Origin: a virus
Strand: one strand, 5' to 3'
Length of the DNA stretch: 20,508 bases
Virus record (IMG/VR): IMGVR_UViG_3300017742_000174
Span: 1-20,508 of that record
Of the stretch, positions 1 through 18,679 are shown in pieces. Both the position numbers and the translations under genes were made by a program. Under the pieces are notes generated by a model. The model was given only the letters and a program-made list of their open reading frames with translations. It searched no databases and had not been told where the DNA came from. Numbering within the stretch: position 1 is the first letter of the stretch; the number at the start of each line of letters is the position of its first letter.

Positions 1-2547
1 CTTGAGTGGGACTTAATTAAGAAGAAGGAAGAAGAGACAGGTTCATCTGGTGTCACAGATAACAGGGCCACAGGTGTTATTAATACTGGTGGCGCAGGTG
101 GCGGTGCTGCTGGTGGGGCTGGTGCAATAGGCTCTGGTACACCTTACACTGGTCCTAACTTTGTAAGCACACCTAACATTGGTGCTGTTACTCCAGTTTA
201 CGGAGATGGTCAGACTGGTCTTACTGAAGTAAACATTCCTACCTATGAGGCTGGTCTAGGTAAACAAGCTACTCAGTTTGCTAATAGAGCTACGTGTCAA
301 GCAAGTTTCTACAAACCTCAAACGTTAGAGGAACAACAAGCTGCTGGAACAGCTCCATCCTTTGAAAACGTACTGTACCGTAACAGATTTGGTATGAGCA
401 TGTACGTGCAACACATTAACGGTGTGCCCTCCCAGCCTATTCCTCCTGGTTACTCAAGAGTTCAGCAGTTTACTACTGAGAGCCAAATGCAAGGCCAGAA
501 CCAAGGTGGTATGATCCAAGGGTTTAATCCAGGTGGCACAGTAAACCCTGCCATCAACTTTCAACCTGGAGGAAAAGTAGTCCAAGTAGGTAACTCCTTT
601 AAGATTCAATATCCAGACGGTACATTCTCACAGGCATATGACACATCTTTAAATGCTAACTCCGCCCTAGGTATGGGAAATGAAGGCCTAGGTTTACCTG
701 ACTACAGTACATACTTAGAACAACAAGGGTACAATTCAACTCTACCTGGCTTTGATCAAGATACTATGTATGGGATGTACACGTCCTACCTTCAAGATCC
801 AGCTACTCTAGAAAATATTAATCAACAGAAACAGCAGGAACAAACGGAACAGGTAGTTGATCAAACTGCTGGTGTAAATCAAGACTTTGTTACTGGGCAA
901 ACAGAAATAACTAAAGAAGATTTAGGTCAATATCAAGCTAACCTAAATGCTCAAGCATACGCTAATCCTGCGGGGGCTGTAGCCGCTGCTCCTGTGTCAT
1001 ATATTGATCCTAATGCCATGGGTACAGTCCTTGAATCTACTGCAGGTCAGGCTCAAGCTACTGCACCTATGGTTCAAGAAGATCAGGTAGCACAGATTGG
1101 AGCTGCTACCACTGCTGATGTTCCTGTTGGGCAGGGGGCTACAACCTACAACGCTAATCAAGCGTATTCTGACGTACAAAATGCTACAGCAAACATGGCT
1201 GCAGAAACGTCTACTGGACCTACTTCAACTATTACCGCTGAGGAGCAAGCAACTTCGTCTGTCTCAGGACTTACGTCTGCCAATGGTGACTCTGTAGATG
1301 TTACTGGTGCCCCAACTCGTACACTAGAAACTATAGATGGTCAAAGTGAGTTAATTACTGGAACTGGGGTAGATCAGTCTAAAGTACTTAGTGCTTTTGG
1401 AGAGGGCGAGATTAAAGCTGCATCTGTTCAGGACGAACTAACTGGTCTGATGCAACAGTTTGAGGGTGGCGAAACACCAGCTTGGGCTGCAGGTTCTATG
1501 AGATCAGCTATGGCTACCCTTGCTGCTAGGGGGCTAGGTGCTTCAAGCATGGCAGGACAAGCAGTAATACAAGCTGCTATGGAATCCGCTCTTCCTATTG
1601 CCCAGATTGATGCTGGTAACAAGCAACAGATGGCTCTGTTTAAAGGGGAGCAGAGAGCTAAGTTCTTACAGATGGACTTCGATCAAGCATTCCAAGCTAA
1701 GGTTATGAATGCTGCGAAGGTATCTGAGATTGCTAACATGAACTTCACTGCTGAACAGCAGATTGCTTTGGAGAACTCTAAAGCTGCTAACACTATGGAG
1801 TTGCAGAACCTAAGTAATGATCAAGCATTAATTATGGCAGAGGCGGCTGCTCTTTCTCAGTTAGAAACTCAAAGCCTAAGTAACAGGCAGCAGACTGCGG
1901 TGCAAAATGCTCAGAACTTTTTGCAGATAGACATGGCTAACCTGGCTAATGAACAGCAGACTGCCTTGTTCAAACAACAGTCTTTGGTAAACACTATCTT
2001 AAGCGACCAGGCTGCAGCTAACGCTGCCCTACAATTTAACGCAACTTCAGAAAACCAAACTGATCAGTTCTTCTCAAATCTTTCAGCTTCAGTAAATCAG
2101 TTCAATGCTGCGCAGATGAATGCCATGAAGCAGTTTAATGCTGACGAAGTTAACTCTCTTTTAGAGTTTAACGCAGGTATGCAGAACCAAAGGGAAATGT
2201 TTAACGCACAGAACTACCTTGTTGTAGCCCAAGCCAACGCCCAGTGGAGACAGAACTTAGCTACTATTAACACTGCTGGTGCTAACGAAAGTAACATGGC
2301 ATATACACAGGCTGTCAACGGTTTGACTATGACATCTTTAGATGAGATATGGCAGAGAGAAAGAGACATTCTTTCTATGGCCTTTCAAATATCAGAGAAC
2401 AGTGCTAACAGGGCTAATGAAATCGTACTTCAAAAACTATCGGCTGACGCTGGAACAGATGCTGCAAAACTACAGGCAGAGATTGAGGGTGCTTCGTCAA
2501 CAGGTGATTTTGTAAAAGAAGTATTTTTAAAAATTATAGGAATTTAA
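1..2547 (+). CDS. Virion structural protein, hendecad-repeat rich (5'-truncated by window)
   Basis: The reading frame is open from the first base, so this is the 3' part of a longer gene with 848 residues visible. The ATG at 394 has no good ribosome binding site, and 131 in-frame codons precede it without a stop, so I treat it as an internal Met. The visible N-terminal part has a Gly/Ala-rich stretch (about residues 30-45). Next comes a segment rich in Gln, Gly and Pro, then an Ala/Gln/Thr-rich low-complexity middle (about 220-480). From residue 537 to 778 the chain is built of consecutive 11-residue repeats. There is no signal peptide or catalytic motif I recognise. The late-gene neighbours (transglycosylase-like, large internal protein) suggest a virion component, perhaps an internal core or tail-associated protein comparable in role to the T7 gp14-16 group. 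That role is inferred from position and composition, not homology. Confidence 0.8.
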   Translation, partial: LEWDLIKKKEEETGSSGVTDNRATGVINTGGAGGGAAGGAGAIGSGTPYTGPNFVSTPNIGAVTPVYGDGQTGLTEVNIPTYEAGLGKQATQFANRATCQASFYKPQTLEEQQAAGTAPSFENVLYRNRFGMSMYVQHINGVPSQPIPPGYSRVQQFTTESQMQGQNQGGMIQGFNPGGTVNPAINFQPGGKVVQVGNSFKIQYPDGTFSQAYDTSLNANSALGMGNEGLGLPDYSTYLEQQGYNSTLPGFDQDTMYGMYTSYLQDPATLENINQQKQQEQTEQVVDQTAGVNQDFVTGQTEITKEDLGQYQANLNAQAYANPAGAVAAAPVSYIDPNAMGTVLESTAGQAQATAPMVQEDQVAQIGAATTADVPVGQGATTYNANQAYSDVQNATANMAAETSTGPTSTITAEEQATSSVSGLTSANGDSVDVTGAPTRTLETIDGQSELITGTGVDQSKVLSAFGEGEIKAASVQDELTGLMQQFEGGETPAWAAGSMRSAMATLAARGLGASSMAGQAVIQAAMESALPIAQIDAGNKQQMALFKGEQRAKFLQMDFDQAFQAKVMNAAKVSEIANMNFTAEQQIALENSKAANTMELQNLSNDQALIMAEAAALSQLETQSLSNRQQTAVQNAQNFLQIDMANLANEQQTALFKQQSLVNTILSDQAAANAALQFNATSENQTDQFFSNLSASVNQFNAAQMNAMKQFNADEVNSLLEFNAGMQNQREMFNAQNYLVVAQANAQWRQNLATINTAGANESNMAYTQAVNGLTMTSLDEIWQRERDILSMAFQISENSANRANEIVLQKLSADAGTDAAKLQAEIEGASSTGDFVKEVFLKIIGI
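1609..2334 (+). repeat. Tandem 11-residue (33-bp) protein repeats
   Basis: Residues 537-778 of the first protein divide into 22 consecutive 11-residue units with no insertion or deletion. Typical units are NATSENQTDQF, NAAQMNAMKQF, NADEVNSLLEF and NAGMQNQREMF. Many units start with Asn-Ala and end with Phe, Met or another hydrophobic residue. The DNA is diverged, so this is a protein-level repeat rather than a recent duplication. Hendecad periodicity normally indicates long straight or slightly right-handed helical coiled coils. Confidence 0.75.
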
Positions 2548-2548
2548 T

Positions 2549-3361
2549 ATGTCACTAGATGCAAGACAAGAGCGGCAAAGACTATCTGTTTTTAATTCTG
2601 CTTTAGAAGACTGGAGATCAAACTCAACTCAGGATGCTCAGGATAGTATTAGAAGAGGGCGTGGCCTGATTCAGGATACAAGACAATCGCAGAGTGATGC
2701 CGCAAGAAGAGTTAAGGCTTCTATGCGGCAAGGGGAATCAAGTAGGGCTGAAAAATCTACTGACCCTAATAAAGAAATAGTATCTTTCCTTGGAAGCTGG
2801 TCTTCAATAATTGATGAGGAATTTGGCGGGGAGCCATACGCAGAGGACGAAGAGAGACCAAACTTAGGTGAAGATTCAAAATCAGATAGGCCTCCAAGGG
2901 TAACTCAGCGCGAGGCAGACGAAGGTATGTTTATGCCATTTGACCTTGAAGAAGATATGGATAATGCCTTGTCTGCCCTTGGATCAATTGAGAGTTCTAA
3001 GGACTACAGTGCTCTTGGCCCTGTTATAAATATTAAAAAGAGTATGTACTATGGGGACAGGGCACATGGGTACTATCAAGTTATGGGTAAAAATGTTGGG
3101 CCTTGGACAAAGAAATATCTTGGAAAAGAAATGACAAAAGAAGAGTTCCTCGCAGACCCAGAGTCACAGGATAAACTTGCGAAAACTTTTTTAACTAAAG
3201 AATATAAGAAGCATGGAACTATCGAAGATGCAATCTCTGTATGGTTTACTGGTAGCCCTTTAGCTAAGGCTAAAAAGAAAGGCGCAGCAGATCAGAACAT
3301 ATCGGTCAACGAGTACGTTGAAAGATGGAGACAGGACTACGTTAAGTTATTAGAAGGTTAA
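2549..3361 (+). CDS. Lytic transglycosylase-like virion protein
   Basis: This 270-residue protein starts one base after the preceding stop, with AGGA seven bases upstream of the ATG. Residues 1-125 are charged, helical and low in complexity. The C-terminal half resembles the lysozyme-like fold of soluble lytic transglycosylases. IESS (Glu148) would be the catalytic Glu motif, GYYQVM (174-179) matches the second motif (GxxQ), and VWFTGSP (231-237) lies where the third motif usually carries Tyr-Asn-Gly. The likely role is local cutting of peptidoglycan by a virion protein during DNA entry, like the N-terminal domain of T7 gp16 but here a separate gene. The third motif is divergent, so activity is not certain. 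Of 19 Arg codons I counted 10 AGA and 5 AGG. Confidence 0.65.
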   Translation: MSLDARQERQRLSVFNSALEDWRSNSTQDAQDSIRRGRGLIQDTRQSQSDAARRVKASMRQGESSRAEKSTDPNKEIVSFLGSWSSIIDEEFGGEPYAEDEERPNLGEDSKSDRPPRVTQREADEGMFMPFDLEEDMDNALSALGSIESSKDYSALGPVINIKKSMYYGDRAHGYYQVMGKNVGPWTKKYLGKEMTKEEFLADPESQDKLAKTFLTKEYKKHGTIEDAISVWFTGSPLAKAKKKGAADQNISVNEYVERWRQDYVKLLEG

Positions 3362-3365
3362 ACCA

Positions 3366-3911
3366 ATGCCAGCACTGAACAGACCAATACCAGGGCAGTC
3401 CCTTACGGATGAGCCAAAAAACTATGCTTGGGAAAGACCTCCAGAAATCACAGACCCAAATGAAGCTGTGAAGTACCACCTCGAAAGGGTGGCTGACCCA
3501 GAGGTTATAGACAACGTGTTCTACGCACTTGATATGGGTATGCCTGTTAAGACATTGACAGATTCTATGATGACTGGAGCTTACGCAAAAGGTATCCACA
3601 ACATAGACCTTGGTCTTCTTGTAGAACCGTTAGTGCGTAGAGCGGTTATGAAAATTGCAGACAGAGCTAAGGTTCCTTACAAAGAAACCTTTGACGAAGA
3701 AGAAGCAAGCATAGATGAACGTGCTGCCAGAATGGTAAGGATTGTTGAGTCTACTCCAGAAGAAGAACGTGATGCTGGTTATGATTTCTTATCTGAAGTT
3801 AGTTCAAATGTTAAAGAAACACCTTCTCCTGATTTAGAGATGAGTGAAGAACCTGAAATGTCAGAGGACACAATGGTTGAACAGAAACCTAAAGGTTTGA
3901 TGGCGAGGTAG
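3366..3911 (+). CDS. Hypothetical late-gene protein, acidic C-terminus
   Basis: This 181-residue protein starts four bases after the upstream stop, behind a GAAGG-like ribosome binding site. I cannot assign a function. The N-terminal 20 residues are rich in Pro. Residues about 30-105 look like a compact helical domain (segments such as VIDNVFYALDMGM and LGLLVEPLVRRAVM). The last 60 residues are strongly acidic with many Glu, Ser and Pro and are probably disordered. Similar helical proteins occur in the structural modules of marine phages as far as I recall, but I cannot name the family. Its place between the transglycosylase-like gene and the large internal protein suggests a virion or assembly role. 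Confidence 0.75.
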   Translation: MPALNRPIPGQSLTDEPKNYAWERPPEITDPNEAVKYHLERVADPEVIDNVFYALDMGMPVKTLTDSMMTGAYAKGIHNIDLGLLVEPLVRRAVMKIADRAKVPYKETFDEEEASIDERAARMVRIVESTPEEERDAGYDFLSEVSSNVKETPSPDLEMSEEPEMSEDTMVEQKPKGLMAR

Positions 3912-3915
3912 TACT

Positions 3916-4881
3916 ATGGGATTTTTTGGTAAAGTTGCGTTAAGCTCTGCTCTTGGTGGTCTTGCTGATGACATGAAAGAGAATAGGCAGTATGCAAAAG
4001 ACAAGTCCGAAAGGGTGCAGGACTACCTGTACCAACGTGGCTTGGAGAGAAGGCAAGAGGTTAATAAAACTCGTAATGCCTTACAGAATTCAGTAGAGTA
4101 CCTGCAGTCTAAGGACATGGACAGCAGATCTCTTAATGCACTGTTGATGCAAAACCCAAAGGAAGTTCTTAGGCTTGCTCAAGCCGCTCAAGAGGCTGAA
4201 CAGGAAGGAAGACTTACTAAGTCTATTCTTAATCAAGCTGTTGACGTTGCTTCAGACTTTGATGATCAAGGTCTTACTGCTTCTGAGTTAATAAAGAGAG
4301 CAACTCCAGACTTCGTGTCAGGAGCAGCCTTAAAGAAACCAGAAGAAGTAGAACGAAACGCTATGCAAAAATTGTTTGGCAGAAAATCTTCCCAAGATAT
4401 TCTTTACGATGTTTACTCCGAAAGTTTGTTTGGAGATAAAACTACTGGCGCTGACGTGGCTGCGAGTGTCTCTGCCCCTACAATTAAAGGACGTAAGGAG
4501 GGGCCAAACGATGTGTCTGTAGACCTTGGTGTTCTGGCTGAAAATGAAACCTATGACAGCACATACAAAATTAATGCGGCAAAGGATATTAAAGATAATT
4601 ATGATAGGTTTCTTACAGAAGAAACAAAAAGGATAGCTGACGAGATTGAGGCTGAAGAAGATCCAACAGCTAAAGATATTTTGCTGGCTCAACAAGCAGA
4701 ACTAACAAGAATTAACAATATAGAAAACGCTGCAACTAGATACTATGAGTTAATGAAGGCCGACCCAAGTATTGTAGAAAACATTATGGTTCCTGGTTAC
4801 CTGGTAGTTCTTTCTGATCCAGATTATTTTAAAGATGGTACTGCAGATCTTTTCACAAGTTCTGATTCTGATGAGGATTAA
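3916..4881 (+). CDS. Hypothetical late protein, helical, probably virion-internal
   Basis: This 321-residue protein starts four bases after the preceding stop; the sequence GCGAGG in front serves as a weak ribosome binding site. The N-terminus (MGFFGKVALSSALGGLADDM) is short, hydrophobic and glycine-rich, like the membrane-active starts of some ejection proteins. Most of the rest is predicted by eye to be helical and highly charged, with heptad-like stretches at about residues 20-100 and 215-265. The C-terminus ends in a Ser/Asp/Glu-rich acidic tail. No enzymatic motif is visible. It sits directly before the 1168-residue protein, which makes an internal virion or ejection complex a reasonable but unproven role. 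Confidence 0.75.
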   Translation: MGFFGKVALSSALGGLADDMKENRQYAKDKSERVQDYLYQRGLERRQEVNKTRNALQNSVEYLQSKDMDSRSLNALLMQNPKEVLRLAQAAQEAEQEGRLTKSILNQAVDVASDFDDQGLTASELIKRATPDFVSGAALKKPEEVERNAMQKLFGRKSSQDILYDVYSESLFGDKTTGADVAASVSAPTIKGRKEGPNDVSVDLGVLAENETYDSTYKINAAKDIKDNYDRFLTEETKRIADEIEAEEDPTAKDILLAQQAELTRINNIENAATRYYELMKADPSIVENIMVPGYLVVLSDPDYFKDGTADLFTSSDSDED

Positions 4882-4886
4882 TAAGG

Positions 4887-7800
4887 ATGAGCACATATCA
4901 AGAGCTACAAGAGCAAATTACAAAACGCAGAGAAGAACTTGCGGCTCAGAATCCTGAGGTAGGACAGCGGGAAGAAGAACCAGAACAAGAGGGAATGACC
5001 CTCATTGAAACTCTGTCTACTGACCAAAACTTTAAAACAATAAACAGTTACATGTCTGATAGATTTGGTATGGAGGAAGACAAGTATTCTAAAAGAGAAA
5101 TTATTGACTCTTACATAAATCAAATGAGGGGGTTTAACGCTGGTCAGTCTGTCATAACAGTATCTGAGTTAGCACATTTAAACTCTGGGGAAGGGGATAA
5201 GCTGGCGAGTAGAAGAAGAACAGCTGCAGAAGCTTACGAACTCTTCGACAGTCTTGGTGGTGCTTTCAGTGAGGATAGAACCTTCGGGGAAAAAGCTGAT
5301 GCTGTAGGGGACTACGCCAGAGCACTTCTGATAGACCCCCTTAACTTAGTAACCCTTGGTGTTGGTAAAATTTTTACTCAGGCTGCTGCAAAAGGAACTA
5401 CTCAAGGCGTTAAAATGTTAGCCTTTAGGGCAGGTAGACAAGCTGCCTATGAGGCTTTGAAGAAAGGCTCTTCGAAAAAAGCTGCGGAACGGATCCAAAG
5501 AGAGGCAACACAAAGAGCTTTCCAAGAGGCGCTAAAAAGATCTAAAACAAAAGCTATACTAAACAAAGCAGACAAGAAAGGTATCTACGCTAGTCTTGGT
5601 TTCGACATGGCAGCAGCAGGTGGGATCGACGCTTTGCAGCAAAAGGCTGAAGTAACGTCTGGCTTTAAAGAGGAGATAGACTGGTTTCAAACTGGTATAT
5701 CTACAGCCACTGGTGCTTTGGGCGGAGGCCTTCAACTAGGGTTGATAGCAATAAAAAATAAAAAGAATATACCACTCGCCTCTATTCAACTTCATAGGTC
5801 AAGACTAGTTCAACAAGCTACCGATGATTCTATACAAGCCCTTAGTAAAGAACAAAGAAAAGAAATTCTTGCTAGTGAAAACGTAACTGAATCTTTGCTG
5901 CAACTAAAGAAGAGAACTGAGGCTTGGGCAAGCAAGGTAGCGGAAGGTAAAAAACTTTTAAAGGTTGGAGATAATCCTAAGTCTTCTATAGACTACGACA
6001 CTGAGTTTGCTCAAATGTTTTTTATAGGGAATAAAACTGCACAACTAGAAGATGGGGCAGTCTCAGGGTTCAAAGGACTTATAAATATTATAGGTGAAGC
6101 AGGGTACAAACAATCAAACAATATGAACTTTACTGATTTTATGGGTGAAGCTCTTGGAGATCTATCAGAAGAAAATAAAAAGATTGTTGTAGATGCTTAC
6201 GAAGTTTTGAGAGAAACCTCAGAGCAACTAAAGCCTTTTAATTTTGAAGAGTTTATAAAAATAGATGCAGCCTCTGTTTCTGAAGCTGCAAGAATTATGC
6301 AGGTTAAATCACAAGCACAGCAAATGTTTAACAAAATTGGGTTAAGCGCAACTGAGGCAGATGCCGCTACAGCAGCAAAAGTTTTGCTTGATCCTGCCGA
6401 TGAAGAAACAGTGAAGGGTATCTTTAGTAAGTTTAGACCTTTACAAGATAACTTAATAAGAAGTATTGTAACCCACCCAGGTACAACGGCTCTTAACTTA
6501 GTAGGTTGGAAAGCCGCAACAGTAAATCAAAGTCTGTCTGATCTGGTGCGTTCTGCATTGTACAGTGGGGCTGCCGCTGGAAGCTTAATAGCATTCAACA
6601 AAACTAACGCTACTAAATACTTTAAAATGAGCAGACAAATGATGGACCTTCAAAGGCAGAAGGTCAGGAATATGGTTGATCCTTACGGAACTAAGGACTC
6701 AGTCATGGATTATTTGGCAGTAAGGCCTGAGGCCCAAAAAGAAATGTTTAGATACATCAATGGTGGTGTGGAAGTAAAAGGTATCCTTGATGATTTTGAG
6801 TTAAATCCTAACGCAGTTCCAAACAAAACAAATTTTCAAAAGTACAATGAGTTCTTTGAGACCTTGTACGCAGTTAAAGCTCAAGACTTTATTACAAAGA
6901 CACAAGAGTTTTCTTATGCTTTAGATAAACAGATGAGACTAAAGTATGATAAGACTTTATCTGAATTTTTAAATGATCCTGAGTTAGTACAATATCTATC
7001 TGAACCAGGAACAAAAAGATTTAAAGAGTTTGCTGAAATCGAGGCGGCTGCAGTTGAGGATGCCTTGCGTAACACCTTCTCAAAGAAGTTTGGCGACAAC
7101 AAATCGTTTGTAGGCCAGGCTGCTGGAATTATTGAAGCACTAAGGACCATCCCTGGTCTTGGTGCTCTTGCTCCTTTCGGTCAATTCTGGAACAATAGTG
7201 TAGCGTTTATGCTTGATCACTCTGGTATAAGTCTTATTAATAAGTACACTGTAAAAGCAGGAGGTGCCAGAGCAGTAAGTCGAGACTCTATGGATCTCCT
7301 GACTAAGTCTGCTGTTGGTTGGGGTGCTGTAGGTATAGGGGTTTACAAACAATTAGACAACCTTGAACAAGGTTTGGCCTGGTACGAAGACAGAGATGAC
7401 TTCGGCGCTGTTAGAAGTTCTTTGTATGACTACCCAAGAAACGTACCAATGCTGGTTGGTCGTATGGGGGCACACCTTGTTAGGGACGGTAAGATTCCAT
7501 CAGATTTGACTGAAGCCTTTGTGGACAACTTCGGAACTCGTGCTTTAACTAGGGATCTTGGTGATGCTTATGGCGCTGTATCTGAAGGCTTTCAAATGGC
7601 TGCAGAGGCGGATGATGTAGAAGTGCTTGAGGTTATCAAGAACATGCTTGGCTCCATGATCTCTCAGTACGCATCTGGATTTACAAGAAGGTACGAACCA
7701 GTAAATCAAATAATGGCTATGAGAAGAGGAGAGGACTACGAGTCCGTAGATAAAAAACAAGGCGCTCAATGGGTTAACGACTCGACAAGGTATGTCGATC

Positions 7801-8393
7801 AAATCTTTGAGGCTATAACTGACATGCAGCCAACAGAACTTATTACCGATAGACCACAGAAAAAAACTAATGCTCTATCTGCTGAGCCTCTTCCTGTTCC
7901 TATTGGAAAGATCACTGGTTACAGAGAAATCTTACCTTCATCTACAATTGAAAAGTTGTTTAATGATATTGGAAGATCCAAATGGAAGACTGAAATTAGA
8001 AGTAAATCTCCTGAGGCCGCCAATACTTTTAATGATTTTGTAAGACCACAGATAGAAATGCTTGCTGAAATTGTTATGTACAATGGGGAGTGGGATGGTA
8101 AGAACCTTGAAGAGAAACAAAAAATAGTAGATACTATTCTTAAAGTAGCTAAAGGAAATGCTATGGATAGTTTAGAACTGTCTATTGATCCTGTCGAAAG
8201 AAAAACAAAACTTATCTTTGACGTTAAAAAAATAACCACTAAAAAGAACTTAGGTAAAGTTCTTAAATACTTTGACATTAAAGAGGAAGAGATGTGGAAG
8301 CTTGACGTGAACGAGCTTCTTATTGTCGAAGACTTCTTAAAGTCTATGAAAGAAGATGATGCTGGCCTCAGTAAAAGGCTGGGTATTGAATAA
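4887..8393 (+). CDS. Large internal virion / DNA-ejection type protein
   Basis: At 1168 residues this is the longest gene and the last of the late operon. The ATG lies five bases after the upstream stop, with GAGG ten bases and AAGG immediately in front of it. The protein starts with a charged helical segment. It has several short Gly/Ala-rich hydrophobic stretches (about residues 145-160, 270-285, 560-570 and 805-820) that could insert into membranes. Elsewhere it is helical and charged. I see no polymerase, protease or muramidase motifs. Size, position and composition match the large ejection proteins of podoviruses (T7 gp16-like in role), with the muramidase activity apparently moved to the separate 2549-3361 gene. 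Sequence-level homology was not tested. Confidence 0.75.
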   Translation: MSTYQELQEQITKRREELAAQNPEVGQREEEPEQEGMTLIETLSTDQNFKTINSYMSDRFGMEEDKYSKREIIDSYINQMRGFNAGQSVITVSELAHLNSGEGDKLASRRRTAAEAYELFDSLGGAFSEDRTFGEKADAVGDYARALLIDPLNLVTLGVGKIFTQAAAKGTTQGVKMLAFRAGRQAAYEALKKGSSKKAAERIQREATQRAFQEALKRSKTKAILNKADKKGIYASLGFDMAAAGGIDALQQKAEVTSGFKEEIDWFQTGISTATGALGGGLQLGLIAIKNKKNIPLASIQLHRSRLVQQATDDSIQALSKEQRKEILASENVTESLLQLKKRTEAWASKVAEGKKLLKVGDNPKSSIDYDTEFAQMFFIGNKTAQLEDGAVSGFKGLINIIGEAGYKQSNNMNFTDFMGEALGDLSEENKKIVVDAYEVLRETSEQLKPFNFEEFIKIDAASVSEAARIMQVKSQAQQMFNKIGLSATEADAATAAKVLLDPADEETVKGIFSKFRPLQDNLIRSIVTHPGTTALNLVGWKAATVNQSLSDLVRSALYSGAAAGSLIAFNKTNATKYFKMSRQMMDLQRQKVRNMVDPYGTKDSVMDYLAVRPEAQKEMFRYINGGVEVKGILDDFELNPNAVPNKTNFQKYNEFFETLYAVKAQDFITKTQEFSYALDKQMRLKYDKTLSEFLNDPELVQYLSEPGTKRFKEFAEIEAAAVEDALRNTFSKKFGDNKSFVGQAAGIIEALRTIPGLGALAPFGQFWNNSVAFMLDHSGISLINKYTVKAGGARAVSRDSMDLLTKSAVGWGAVGIGVYKQLDNLEQGLAWYEDRDDFGAVRSSLYDYPRNVPMLVGRMGAHLVRDGKIPSDLTEAFVDNFGTRALTRDLGDAYGAVSEGFQMAAEADDVEVLEVIKNMLGSMISQYASGFTRRYEPVNQIMAMRRGEDYESVDKKQGAQWVNDSTRYVDQIFEAITDMQPTELITDRPQKKTNALSAEPLPVPIGKITGYREILPSSTIEKLFNDIGRSKWKTEIRSKSPEAANTFNDFVRPQIEMLAEIVMYNGEWDGKNLEEKQKIVDTILKVAKGNAMDSLELSIDPVERKTKLIFDVKKITTKKNLGKVLKYFDIKEEEMWKLDVNELLIVEDFLKSMKEDDAGLSKRLGIE

Positions 8394-13760: not shown

Positions 13761-13789
13761 CACTTAGTCTTTCTCCCAATGTATGTCAA
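13761..13789 (-). promoter_or_regulatory. Weak promoter candidate ahead of SSB gene
   Basis: A consensus TTGACA (13789-13784) overlaps the polymerase stop codon. Seventeen bases downstream the sequence is TAAGTG (13766-13761), a poor -10 box. An AT-rich stretch then leads into the strong SSB ribosome binding site. The good -35 could be chance. Confidence 0.25.
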
Positions 13790-15747
13790 TGGGTGTCAGA
13801 CCAATTTTTTCCTACGTCAAATGAACCTGGCGTAGGTATCTTAAATCCTAACTCTTGACCAGTCTCAAGCATACAGTCTGCTTGGATCTGACCAAGACGT
13901 TTGGCCTCTTCTTCAGTACCGATAACCTCAACTTGGTATTCATCATGAATAAATCCTACCATCTTAAACCTGATCCCTTCCTTACGGGCAACGTCATGCC
14001 AGCGCAGTAGGGTGTGCTTCATGAGGCAAGCCTCTCCATTCTGCAGTATACCTGCGAGAGCCTTGTGGGTACTAGGTACTTTGACCCTACGCCCATCGTA
14101 TCCTTTGAACCAACCATTCTCCCCAACCTCTTTGATGTACCTGTTCTTAAGTTCAAAGAGACCACCGATACTCATTTCAAAACGGGTACGTGCATCTTGT
14201 GCTTCCTTCATACCAACCTTAAGTATCTGTGCAGTCTTAGCCACACCTGCCCCCAGCAGCCAAGCATAGATAAAAGTCTTTGCCATATCTCGTGTGCCAT
14301 TGGGTACATCAAGGGCGTTCTTGTTTACGTTGTGGATGTCTGTCTCGTTTTCTTTCTTACCTTCCATGATAGCCTTGGCATACTGGTCTTCATCAAACAT
14401 TCGCCAAAGATAATCAGCAAGCACACGTAACTGAATGCCATCTGCATCCGTACCCACAAGCCAAGAGCCAGAGGGAACAGTCCAACAGGCACGTAGGTGG
14501 ACATCGTACTGCCTCTTTACCTCTTCTACTGCAGTCTTAGCAGACCCATGAAAAGGAGAGGAGATGTTAGCTGTGTTAGGTTCTTTGTGGGAACACCTTC
14601 CAGTCCAAGCACCAACACTATTTATCCTACCATGTACACGACTATCATCCCTGCACTGCCCTATCCACTCCACCAGTGATGAACGTCTGCCTTCTAGTGT
14701 CAGCCACTGAGCGAGAGCCTTAGCCCCTGTAGGGGCATCATCAGGTAGTGTGTTAAGGTTGTCCTCCGATACAGTGAACCCATACTTTTCCAGATGTTTT
14801 TTCTTTTGATCGTAGAACTCTTGATCCATAGCCTCGACTGACTTACCGTAAGGCTCTCCAACTTTCTTACGTGCGAAGTTAATAGCTGTTTTAGTTTTAT
14901 CTACTGGTGACCAACCTGCATTCCATAAGGCATCTATCCGATCCTTGGGGGAGCCAGGTTTAAATTCAATCCAGTCAGAGCAAACAAGATCCTCTCCCTC
15001 TACGGTAGTAAGGGCAAACTTTTCTTTAGCCTTAGATACAGTAGCCATCTCAGCACCATCCTTCTTAAGGCGGTACTTGATACGGTTTACCTCAGTAAGT
15101 TTAGGTGGAAAGTCTACTTGAAACTGTTCTTCAAGTGTAGACATCTTTTCTTTTACTGAGCTAAGTAAGAACTCCGCTTTTGTCTTATCAAAGTAAAAGC
15201 CATAGTACTGTGTGCGTACCAGTTCTATCTGAACATCGTGTTCTGTCCTTAAAGACTTAGACCAAGAGCCATCCCAAATAATATCAGAGAAATGTTCATA
15301 AAGATTATGTGTAACCTCGATATCTCCATACCAGTACTCAACCATTTCGTCACTGAATTTATCAAACTCATGAAAGTCTCCTTTGTGTTTGTTTAATCTG
15401 ATACCCCAAGCCTGTAGGCTGTGAGGATACTTAGCACCTTTAGGTGTAGCTATGTCGTAGTCTACGAGTCGGCTCACTATGAGCGTGTCTATAACTTTCT
15501 TTGGGTCGATCAGTCTAGGCTTCAACAGTTTGTTTAACATGGGTGCATCAAACTGTATGAAGTTGTGACCAACAATTAAGTCTGCTGACTCATACCATGC
15601 GATAGCTTCTGCCTTAGCCAATGGATCTTCGTGACAGTTCTCAAACTTGTATACTTCACCAGTAGAAAGATCCTTTCCACCACAAAGCCACAGCTTACTA
15701 CTGTCCTCTAGCCCATTTGTTTCTATGTCACTGACAACTATCTTCAT
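13786..15747 (-). CDS. Family A DNA polymerase with 3'-5' exonuclease (T7 gp5-like)
   Basis: At 653 residues this is the replicative polymerase. Exonuclease motifs: DIETNGL (Asp7, Glu9), GHNFIQFD (Asp67) and YWYGD (Tyr138, Asp142). Polymerase motifs: TGRCSHKEPNTANI (382-395), motif A GTDADGIQLR (Asp434), motif B RDMAKTFIYAWLLGAG (Arg486, Lys490, Tyr494) and motif C FIHDEYQVEV (His601, Asp602, Glu603). All catalytic acids are present. Two usually conserved positions differ: the steric-gate Glu after motif A Asp is Gln439, and the Tyr766-equivalent (E. coli numbering) in motif B is Leu498. Tyr494 is the Phe762-equivalent, as in T7. No DnaJ-like insertion is visible. The ATG overlaps the primase-helicase stop (ATGA). 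Confidence 0.95.
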   Translation of the reverse strand: MKIVVSDIETNGLEDSSKLWLCGGKDLSTGEVYKFENCHEDPLAKAEAIAWYESADLIVGHNFIQFDAPMLNKLLKPRLIDPKKVIDTLIVSRLVDYDIATPKGAKYPHSLQAWGIRLNKHKGDFHEFDKFSDEMVEYWYGDIEVTHNLYEHFSDIIWDGSWSKSLRTEHDVQIELVRTQYYGFYFDKTKAEFLLSSVKEKMSTLEEQFQVDFPPKLTEVNRIKYRLKKDGAEMATVSKAKEKFALTTVEGEDLVCSDWIEFKPGSPKDRIDALWNAGWSPVDKTKTAINFARKKVGEPYGKSVEAMDQEFYDQKKKHLEKYGFTVSEDNLNTLPDDAPTGAKALAQWLTLEGRRSSLVEWIGQCRDDSRVHGRINSVGAWTGRCSHKEPNTANISSPFHGSAKTAVEEVKRQYDVHLRACWTVPSGSWLVGTDADGIQLRVLADYLWRMFDEDQYAKAIMEGKKENETDIHNVNKNALDVPNGTRDMAKTFIYAWLLGAGVAKTAQILKVGMKEAQDARTRFEMSIGGLFELKNRYIKEVGENGWFKGYDGRRVKVPSTHKALAGILQNGEACLMKHTLLRWHDVARKEGIRFKMVGFIHDEYQVEVIGTEEEAKRLGQIQADCMLETGQELGFKIPTPGSFDVGKNWSDTH

Positions 15748-18602: not shown

Positions 18603-18679
18603 TGGTCCACCCTGCAGGACTTGAACCTGCAACCTACGGTTTAGAAGACCGTTGCTCTATCCAGTTGAGCTAAGGATGG
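18603..18679 (-). tRNA. tRNA-Arg (anticodon UCU), CCA encoded
   Basis: The minus strand folds into a full cloverleaf of 77 bases. The acceptor stem CCATCCT pairs with AGGGTGG (one T-G wobble), with discriminator A and an encoded CCA. The D stem is GCTC/GAGC. The anticodon stem is ACGGT/ACCGT with loop CTTCTAA, anticodon TCT. The T stem is GCAGG/CCTGC with loop TTCAAGT. It reads AGA and, by wobble, AGG codons, which are abundant in the late genes. It is embedded in the leftward operon, so it must be cut from a longer transcript. Confidence 0.95.

Follow-up and report, generated by a model that had tools for sequence, protein, structure and literature searches.

The window analyzed here is a 20.5-kb virus record (20,508 nucleotides) in which the forward strand carries late genes at positions 1–8393 and the reverse strand carries genes for replication and metabolism from ~20350 down to 8426, along with a tRNA-Arg gene with anticodon tct (18603–18679). 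The first late gene, P1 (1–2547, forward strand), is cut at its 5′ end by the window, leaving 848 residues, and its nearest full-length relative has 1,153 residues counted from the first Met. P1 is an orthologue of HMO-2011 gp25 and of CRP-9 gp40, the latter being the best named match at 65.6% identity. Its N-terminal half is hypervariable among relatives. There follow a conserved domain (residues 485–536, QQFEGGETPAWA...LAARGLGASS...ALPIAQ; 1453–1608), a proline-free array of 22 in-register 11-residue units that is predicted to be helical and has two hydrophobic faces (residues 537–778; 1609–2334), with the motif NAQWRQ inside unit 20 (residues 746–751; 2236–2253), and a C-terminal helical region (2335–2544) that is Gly-rich and hydrophobic in some relatives, three of which then carry a Peptidase_S74 domain.

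The family includes HMO-2011 gp25, CHOED_13, phiM6_25, and proteins of Slicky01, MQM1, and pelagiphages, all annotated as hypothetical except that one is wrongly labeled "huntingtin" and one record has no annotation. The record of Aeromonas phage 1233 contains a homologue (L094:5014–6642) where no gene is annotated. The S74 domain lies at the C-terminus of the relatives in CRP-3, CRP-738, and CRP-235 and is absent from P1 of the window and from most relatives. In the CRP-235 homologue (L095:4966–7578), the array is flanked by an N-terminal LysM domain, which is peptidoglycan-binding, and the C-terminal S74 domain. A scan of genome collections for P1 homologues gave nothing beyond phage contigs binned into metagenome-assembled genomes (MAGs); contigs of this kind (L181–L187) bear the labels Flavobacteriales, Neomarinimicrobiota, Rhodobiaceae, Euryarchaeota, and Blastopirellula, and their placement is probably due to binning errors.

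Downstream of P1, and on the same strand, lies P2 (2549–3361), a muralytic-like protein whose counterpart in L072 gave matches to the SLT and phage lysozyme domains, in agreement with a preliminary description of this DNA that had placed P1 in a late position beside a transglycosylase. P3 (3366–3911) accompanies P1, on its downstream side, in almost every relative, and has a conserved extended start (PIPGQSLT..PKNY.WERPP) and the motif GLMAR at its C-terminus. The late protein P4 (3916–4881) is very variable in length among relatives, from roughly 310 to 1,000 residues. P5 (4887–8393) is a large all-helical late protein of 1,168 residues, whose relative in HTVC033P has an LPD38 polyvalent-protein domain; a fold search with its predicted structure (pLDDT 61, pTM 0.52) gave no gp16-like match. 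PDB sequence and profile searches with the P1 array, P3, and P5 returned no usable match.

Structural modules of the HMO-2011 type occur in phages that rank among the most abundant in the sea. The DNA polymerase of the window (13786–15747, reverse strand) has none of the DnaJ-type CxxCxGxG motifs, of which the HMO-2011 polymerase has two. According to PMC8528129, CRP-9-type phages combine an HMO-2011-type structural module with a DNA polymerase that lacks DnaJ-type zinc motifs. The polymerase, together with the best match of P1 to CRP-9, thus marks the phage as a CRP-9-type mosaic. The array itself goes unmentioned in the available text of three papers on HMO-2011-type and CRP-9-type phages (PMC9038755, PMC8528129, PMC6918029).

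The eleven-residue register

Residues 537–778 divide into 22 consecutive 11-residue units, and the signal is specific to this period. The period-11 information of the array is 234.5 bits, compared with 123.9 ± 10.5 bits for shuffled sequences (z = 10.6), and its self-similarity at lag 11 (z = 5.9) lies above all 2,000 shuffles. Periods of 7, 10, 12, 15, and 18 gave nothing comparable, while period 22 reached z = 8.1; indeed, across much of the N-terminal half two unlike hendecads together make up a 22-residue repeat, with lag 22 scoring higher than lag 11, and the last 100 residues consist of simple hendecads of the QFNA type. The first position of the unit is Asn in 13 of the 22 units. It was fair to describe the units as commonly starting with Asn-Ala (8 of 22) and ending with Phe or Met (11 of 22). 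The units at 548, 658, 691, and 768 match the motif poorly and yet keep the spacing. The composition is strongly biased, with Ala, Gln, and Asn making up 48% and Gly 1%. No DNA-level tandem repeat is left inside the window array, so the register must be old and maintained.

The hendecads are therefore confirmed, and more strongly than first stated, with the decisive support for their register coming from a comparison across homologues. We defined array length as the distance between two conserved anchors, PIA in the pre-array domain and WRQ near the end of the array, and placed profile models of the anchors alone on every homologue fetched, named phages included, so that the array itself was not aligned in this measurement. 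The distance falls into a single class modulo 11 in 394 of 395 distinct homologues; the sole exception (L276) carries a single additional residue next to its C-terminal anchor. The homologues in register have 21 different array lengths (118, 151, 162, 173, 184, 217, 228, 239, 272, 283, 305, 316, 338, 360, 371, 426, 448, 536, 558, 668, and 778 residues), corresponding to 10–70 units and thereby providing the differing repeat counts that the preliminary description had called for. Because the homologues are related, the independent evidence lies in the changes among these lengths, which require at least 20 events, every one of them involving whole units. Across the homologue set, proline is found 0 times in 100,485 array residues, compared with 5.8% upstream of the array, and none of 2,450 windows of 66 residues has its Asn phase more than 90° off.

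The route by which an array may lengthen can still be seen in L441, where a 330-bp in-frame tandem repeat of 3.6 copies (2344–3525), each copy being ten hendecads, shows that this array grew by blocks of ten. The same record has a further 165-bp repeat of 2.1 copies (871–1224) in the N-terminal region. The 778-residue length is common to L441, L444, and L470, which come from different samples, and would extend to ~117 nm if straight (estimated at 1.5 Å per residue). A fixed spacer of 36 nm becomes less likely, given array lengths of 118–778 residues among relatives. SAR11 phages include two groups with arrays of 162 and 316 residues, twofold apart, which means that the host envelope cannot be the sole determinant of length; these two lengths, together with the sevenfold range, seen also within one host genus, argue against a ruler for envelope thickness, and that reading was rejected.

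In line with the earlier expectation of a helix rather than a globular fold, AlphaFold2, applied to single chains with an input of 73 window and metagenome sequences, predicts most of residues 494–845 to be helical, including one helix of 104 residues (670–773). The breaks are short (near 556–561, 602–606, 666–669, and 774–776), and the model is of moderate confidence (mean pLDDT 67.6, pTM 0.26) and is weak at ~580–630 and 660–670. A fold search with this model against the PDB found nothing; against BFVD it found three matches at E ≤ 0.001, the best being a 460-residue protein of the same length as CHOED_13. A β-solenoid with an Asn ladder, first suggested by periods of 2.2 and 2.75 residues, was rejected in view of the lack of proline, the 1% Gly, and the predicted helix.

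Hydropathy around the predicted helix

The canonical hendecad coiled coil has a hydropathy period of 11/3, and in an ideal one-core hendecad the one-face term would dominate. When the family as a whole was placed on an 11/3 helical wheel, the one-face hydropathy amplitude was only 0.018 (null 0.026), meaning that a single face is absent, whereas the two-face amplitude reached 0.585 (null 0.026 ± 0.014), with the faces centered at ~110° and ~290°. The continuous 11-residue units of the preliminary reading stand, but the pattern is not that of a standard one-face hendecad coiled coil. The result was the same under five definitions of hydropathy; the two-face term exceeded the one-face term in 38 of 38 non-redundant sequences, and power at 5/11 exceeded that at 3/11 in all 395 homologues. 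The dominant periods are 11/4 and 11/5, not 11/3. Harmonic 5 (the 11/4 period) is as strong as the two-face harmonic and has no simple α-helical meaning. An apolipoprotein-like lipid-binding helix needs one face and was rejected on that ground.

Between the two faces lie a charged sector at 35° and a Gln sector at ~196°; the mean direction of Asn is ~354°. The Asn residues are indeed conserved at a fixed phase, as had been remarked at the outset, but they are nearer the charged sector, and it is the Gln sector that lies opposite.

As controls, we examined one protein solved as a tube and one tape-measure protein (TMP). The heptad part of the H proteins of phiX174, alpha3, and G4, which belongs to the region whose solved phiX174 structure is a decameric DNA tube, lacks one-face hydropathy (p = 0.97) and has the two-face kind (p = 0.007), and the same test on the window array gave p = 0.997 and p = 0.002, respectively. 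The short hendecad part of H is significant for neither. The TP901-1 TMP shows the reverse of the P1 pattern: its hydropathy peaks at 3.66 residues, corresponding to one face, the 3/11 power of its best 121-residue stretch is ~26, and 5/11 shows nothing of note. A simple sequence signature, 11-residue hydropathy of the two-face or the one-face kind, thus told the solved tube and the tape-measure protein apart, with one control for each. The two-faced wheel fits a helix that is flanked on two opposite sides, as in the wall of a channel.

A possible role in genome delivery

We tentatively favor, at somewhat less than even chances, a reading in which P1 is an ejected virion protein that forms a multi-helix wall lining the path of the DNA, resembling the phiX174 H-tube by convergence. 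P1 would be present in the virion and would probably be ejected with the genome. Its array would be one continuous α-helix, and copies would pack side by side through the two opposite hydrophobic faces. The resulting wall of helices would most likely be a tube, with uncharged amide side chains along one side. The DNA would pass through this tube while crossing the envelope, and P1 would then act like the H-tube without being its homologue. We infer presence in the virion, ejection, oligomerization into a tube, the side that faces the lumen, and contact with DNA, and the role in DNA delivery rests on gene order, the domains of relatives, and analogy. The same holds for the channel wall of the preliminary description, of which the wheel bears out the wall helix while the virion, the channel, and ejection are argued from this context. 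Taken together, the evidence suggests, short of proof, that the P1 helix lines the path of the DNA.

Several observations from the context point the same way. P1 lies in a late block that contains the transglycosylase-like P2, P3, and the large helical P5, and its CRP-235 relative has the peptidoglycan-binding LysM domain. The S74 part of the CRP-738 and CRP-235 relatives matches the PHROG family "DNA ejection protein", and in the P22-like Pseudomonas phage AH02 an S74 protein directly precedes a "P22-like injection translocase". The mainly Asn, Gln, and Arg lining of the H-tube lumen (PMC7354561) and PMC8954989 were likewise among the grounds for an ejected, tube-forming protein. Against a conduit count the longest arrays, which at ~117 nm when straight reach far beyond the envelope, the twofold difference in length between SAR11 phage groups, the strong 11/4 term, the moderate confidence of the AlphaFold model, and the usual action of S74 domains on trimers. 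Comparison of P1 with solved ejection proteins and with the H protein, by sequence or profile and by fold, gave no match, and the available text of papers on these phages holds no virion proteomics that place P1 in virions.

In an alternative that we consider unlikely, the array would form a tape-measure-like or core rod, with its helices bundled within the virion, in the portal or tail channel or in an internal core, where it would set a length or hold the end of the DNA before leaving with it. Siphophage tape-measure proteins also consist of 11-residue units that are gained and lost whole (PMC3271669, PMC5099701), and the 330-bp in-frame duplications of ten units in L441 would suit such a rod. 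However, tape-measure proteins have a single hydrophobic face marked by W/F and, in TP901-1, almost nothing at 5/11; profile comparison of P1 with the TP901-1 TMP gave no match; and the phages with P1 are short-tailed (the tail of MQM1 is 9.2 nm), which leaves no long tail to be measured. Somewhat less probable still is an external trimeric helical stalk of a fiber or whisker, whose variable N-terminal part would be an adhesin and whose trimer would, in some phages, be folded by an S74 chaperone. The hypervariable N-terminal half and the freely variable array length would fit such a stalk, as would the S74 domains of the CRP-3, CRP-738, and CRP-235 relatives and the tail-fiber gene region upstream of the orthologue in HMO-2011, but the array lacks the single hydrophobic core stripe on which a trimeric coil depends, no receptor-binding domain follows the array, S74 is missing from P1 of the window and most relatives, and two of the S74 relatives match the ejection-protein family. 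It is improbable that the array is a non-specific helical filler or spacer of low complexity, packaged along with the DNA and in register simply through the ease with which duplications of 11 residues occur. The biased composition (48% Ala, Gln, and Asn) and very variable length would accord with such a filler; against it stand 21 in-register length classes with no drift and no proline, which indicate selection on packing, the absence of a DNA-level tandem repeat from the window array, and a slightly negative net charge, which also rules out a DNA-condensing protein.

A broader reading, which we hold with somewhat more doubt, is that a family of short-tailed dsDNA phages independently evolved an H-tube-like conduit with 10–70 one-register hendecads per chain, which could be lengthened unit by unit beyond 100 nm and would serve as a modular channel wall in genome delivery. 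Hendecads in the phiX174 H-tube and the gain and loss of whole units in tape-measure proteins are already known, but the literature searched seems to contain no description of a tailed phage that combines a two-faced pattern with 10–70 strictly in-register units; of the four papers on hendecads and bacteriophages that a full-text search gave, only the H-tube paper concerned DNA delivery. P1 occurs in abundant marine phages, in which it is annotated as hypothetical. A helix that keeps strictly in register and occurs naturally in about 20 lengths offers a testable handle on the design of DNA conduits, for which lengthening or shortening by whole units is expected to be tolerated and breaking of the register is not.

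Comparison with known systems

The closest counterparts of P1 are its orthologues gp25 and gp40 in HMO-2011-type and CRP-9-type marine podoviruses, which sit in the same structural module and differ in that they are annotated only as hypothetical. P22-like S74 proteins (Pseudomonas AH02, Vibrio 1.275.O) resemble the CRP-3, CRP-235, and CRP-738 relatives in having a Gly-rich hydrophobic segment followed by a C-terminal S74 domain, and they occupy a slot before injection-type proteins. However, no hendecad array is seen in them and they have no profile match to the P1 core, and P1 of the window lacks S74. The ejection proteins of T7 (gp14, gp15, and gp16) are likewise encoded in a late block of several helical proteins, the large one last, with muralytic activity nearby. 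They have no profile similarity to P1 or P5, and unlike in T7, the muralytic function here resides in a separate gene and P1 is an extra member. Siphophage TMPs such as that of TP901-1 (PMC3271669, PMC5099701) share with P1 tandem 11-residue helical units gained or lost whole, and have a role in DNA delivery, but differ in their one-faced hydropathy with W/F markers, their long tails, and the lack of a profile match.

Protein H of phiX174 is described in PMC7354561 as a DNA-translocating tube (PDB 4JPP). It differs from P1 in several respects: there is no detectable homology (hhalign probability 0.2%); H has three hendecads plus heptads in ~120 residues, without expansion of an array; and it belongs to a small ssDNA phage and was solved as a decamer, whereas P1 is known from single-chain predictions. 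The lumen of the H-tube is lined mainly by Asn, Gln, and Arg; the P1 array has a Gln sector at ~196°, on one of the sides that might face a lumen. Both proteins have long proline-free helices (predicted in the case of P1) with units of 11 residues, alongside units of 7 in H, both are amide-rich, and the heptad part of H is, like the array, two-faced with no single face. H is a DNA pilot protein, to which P1 may, by analogy, be likened.
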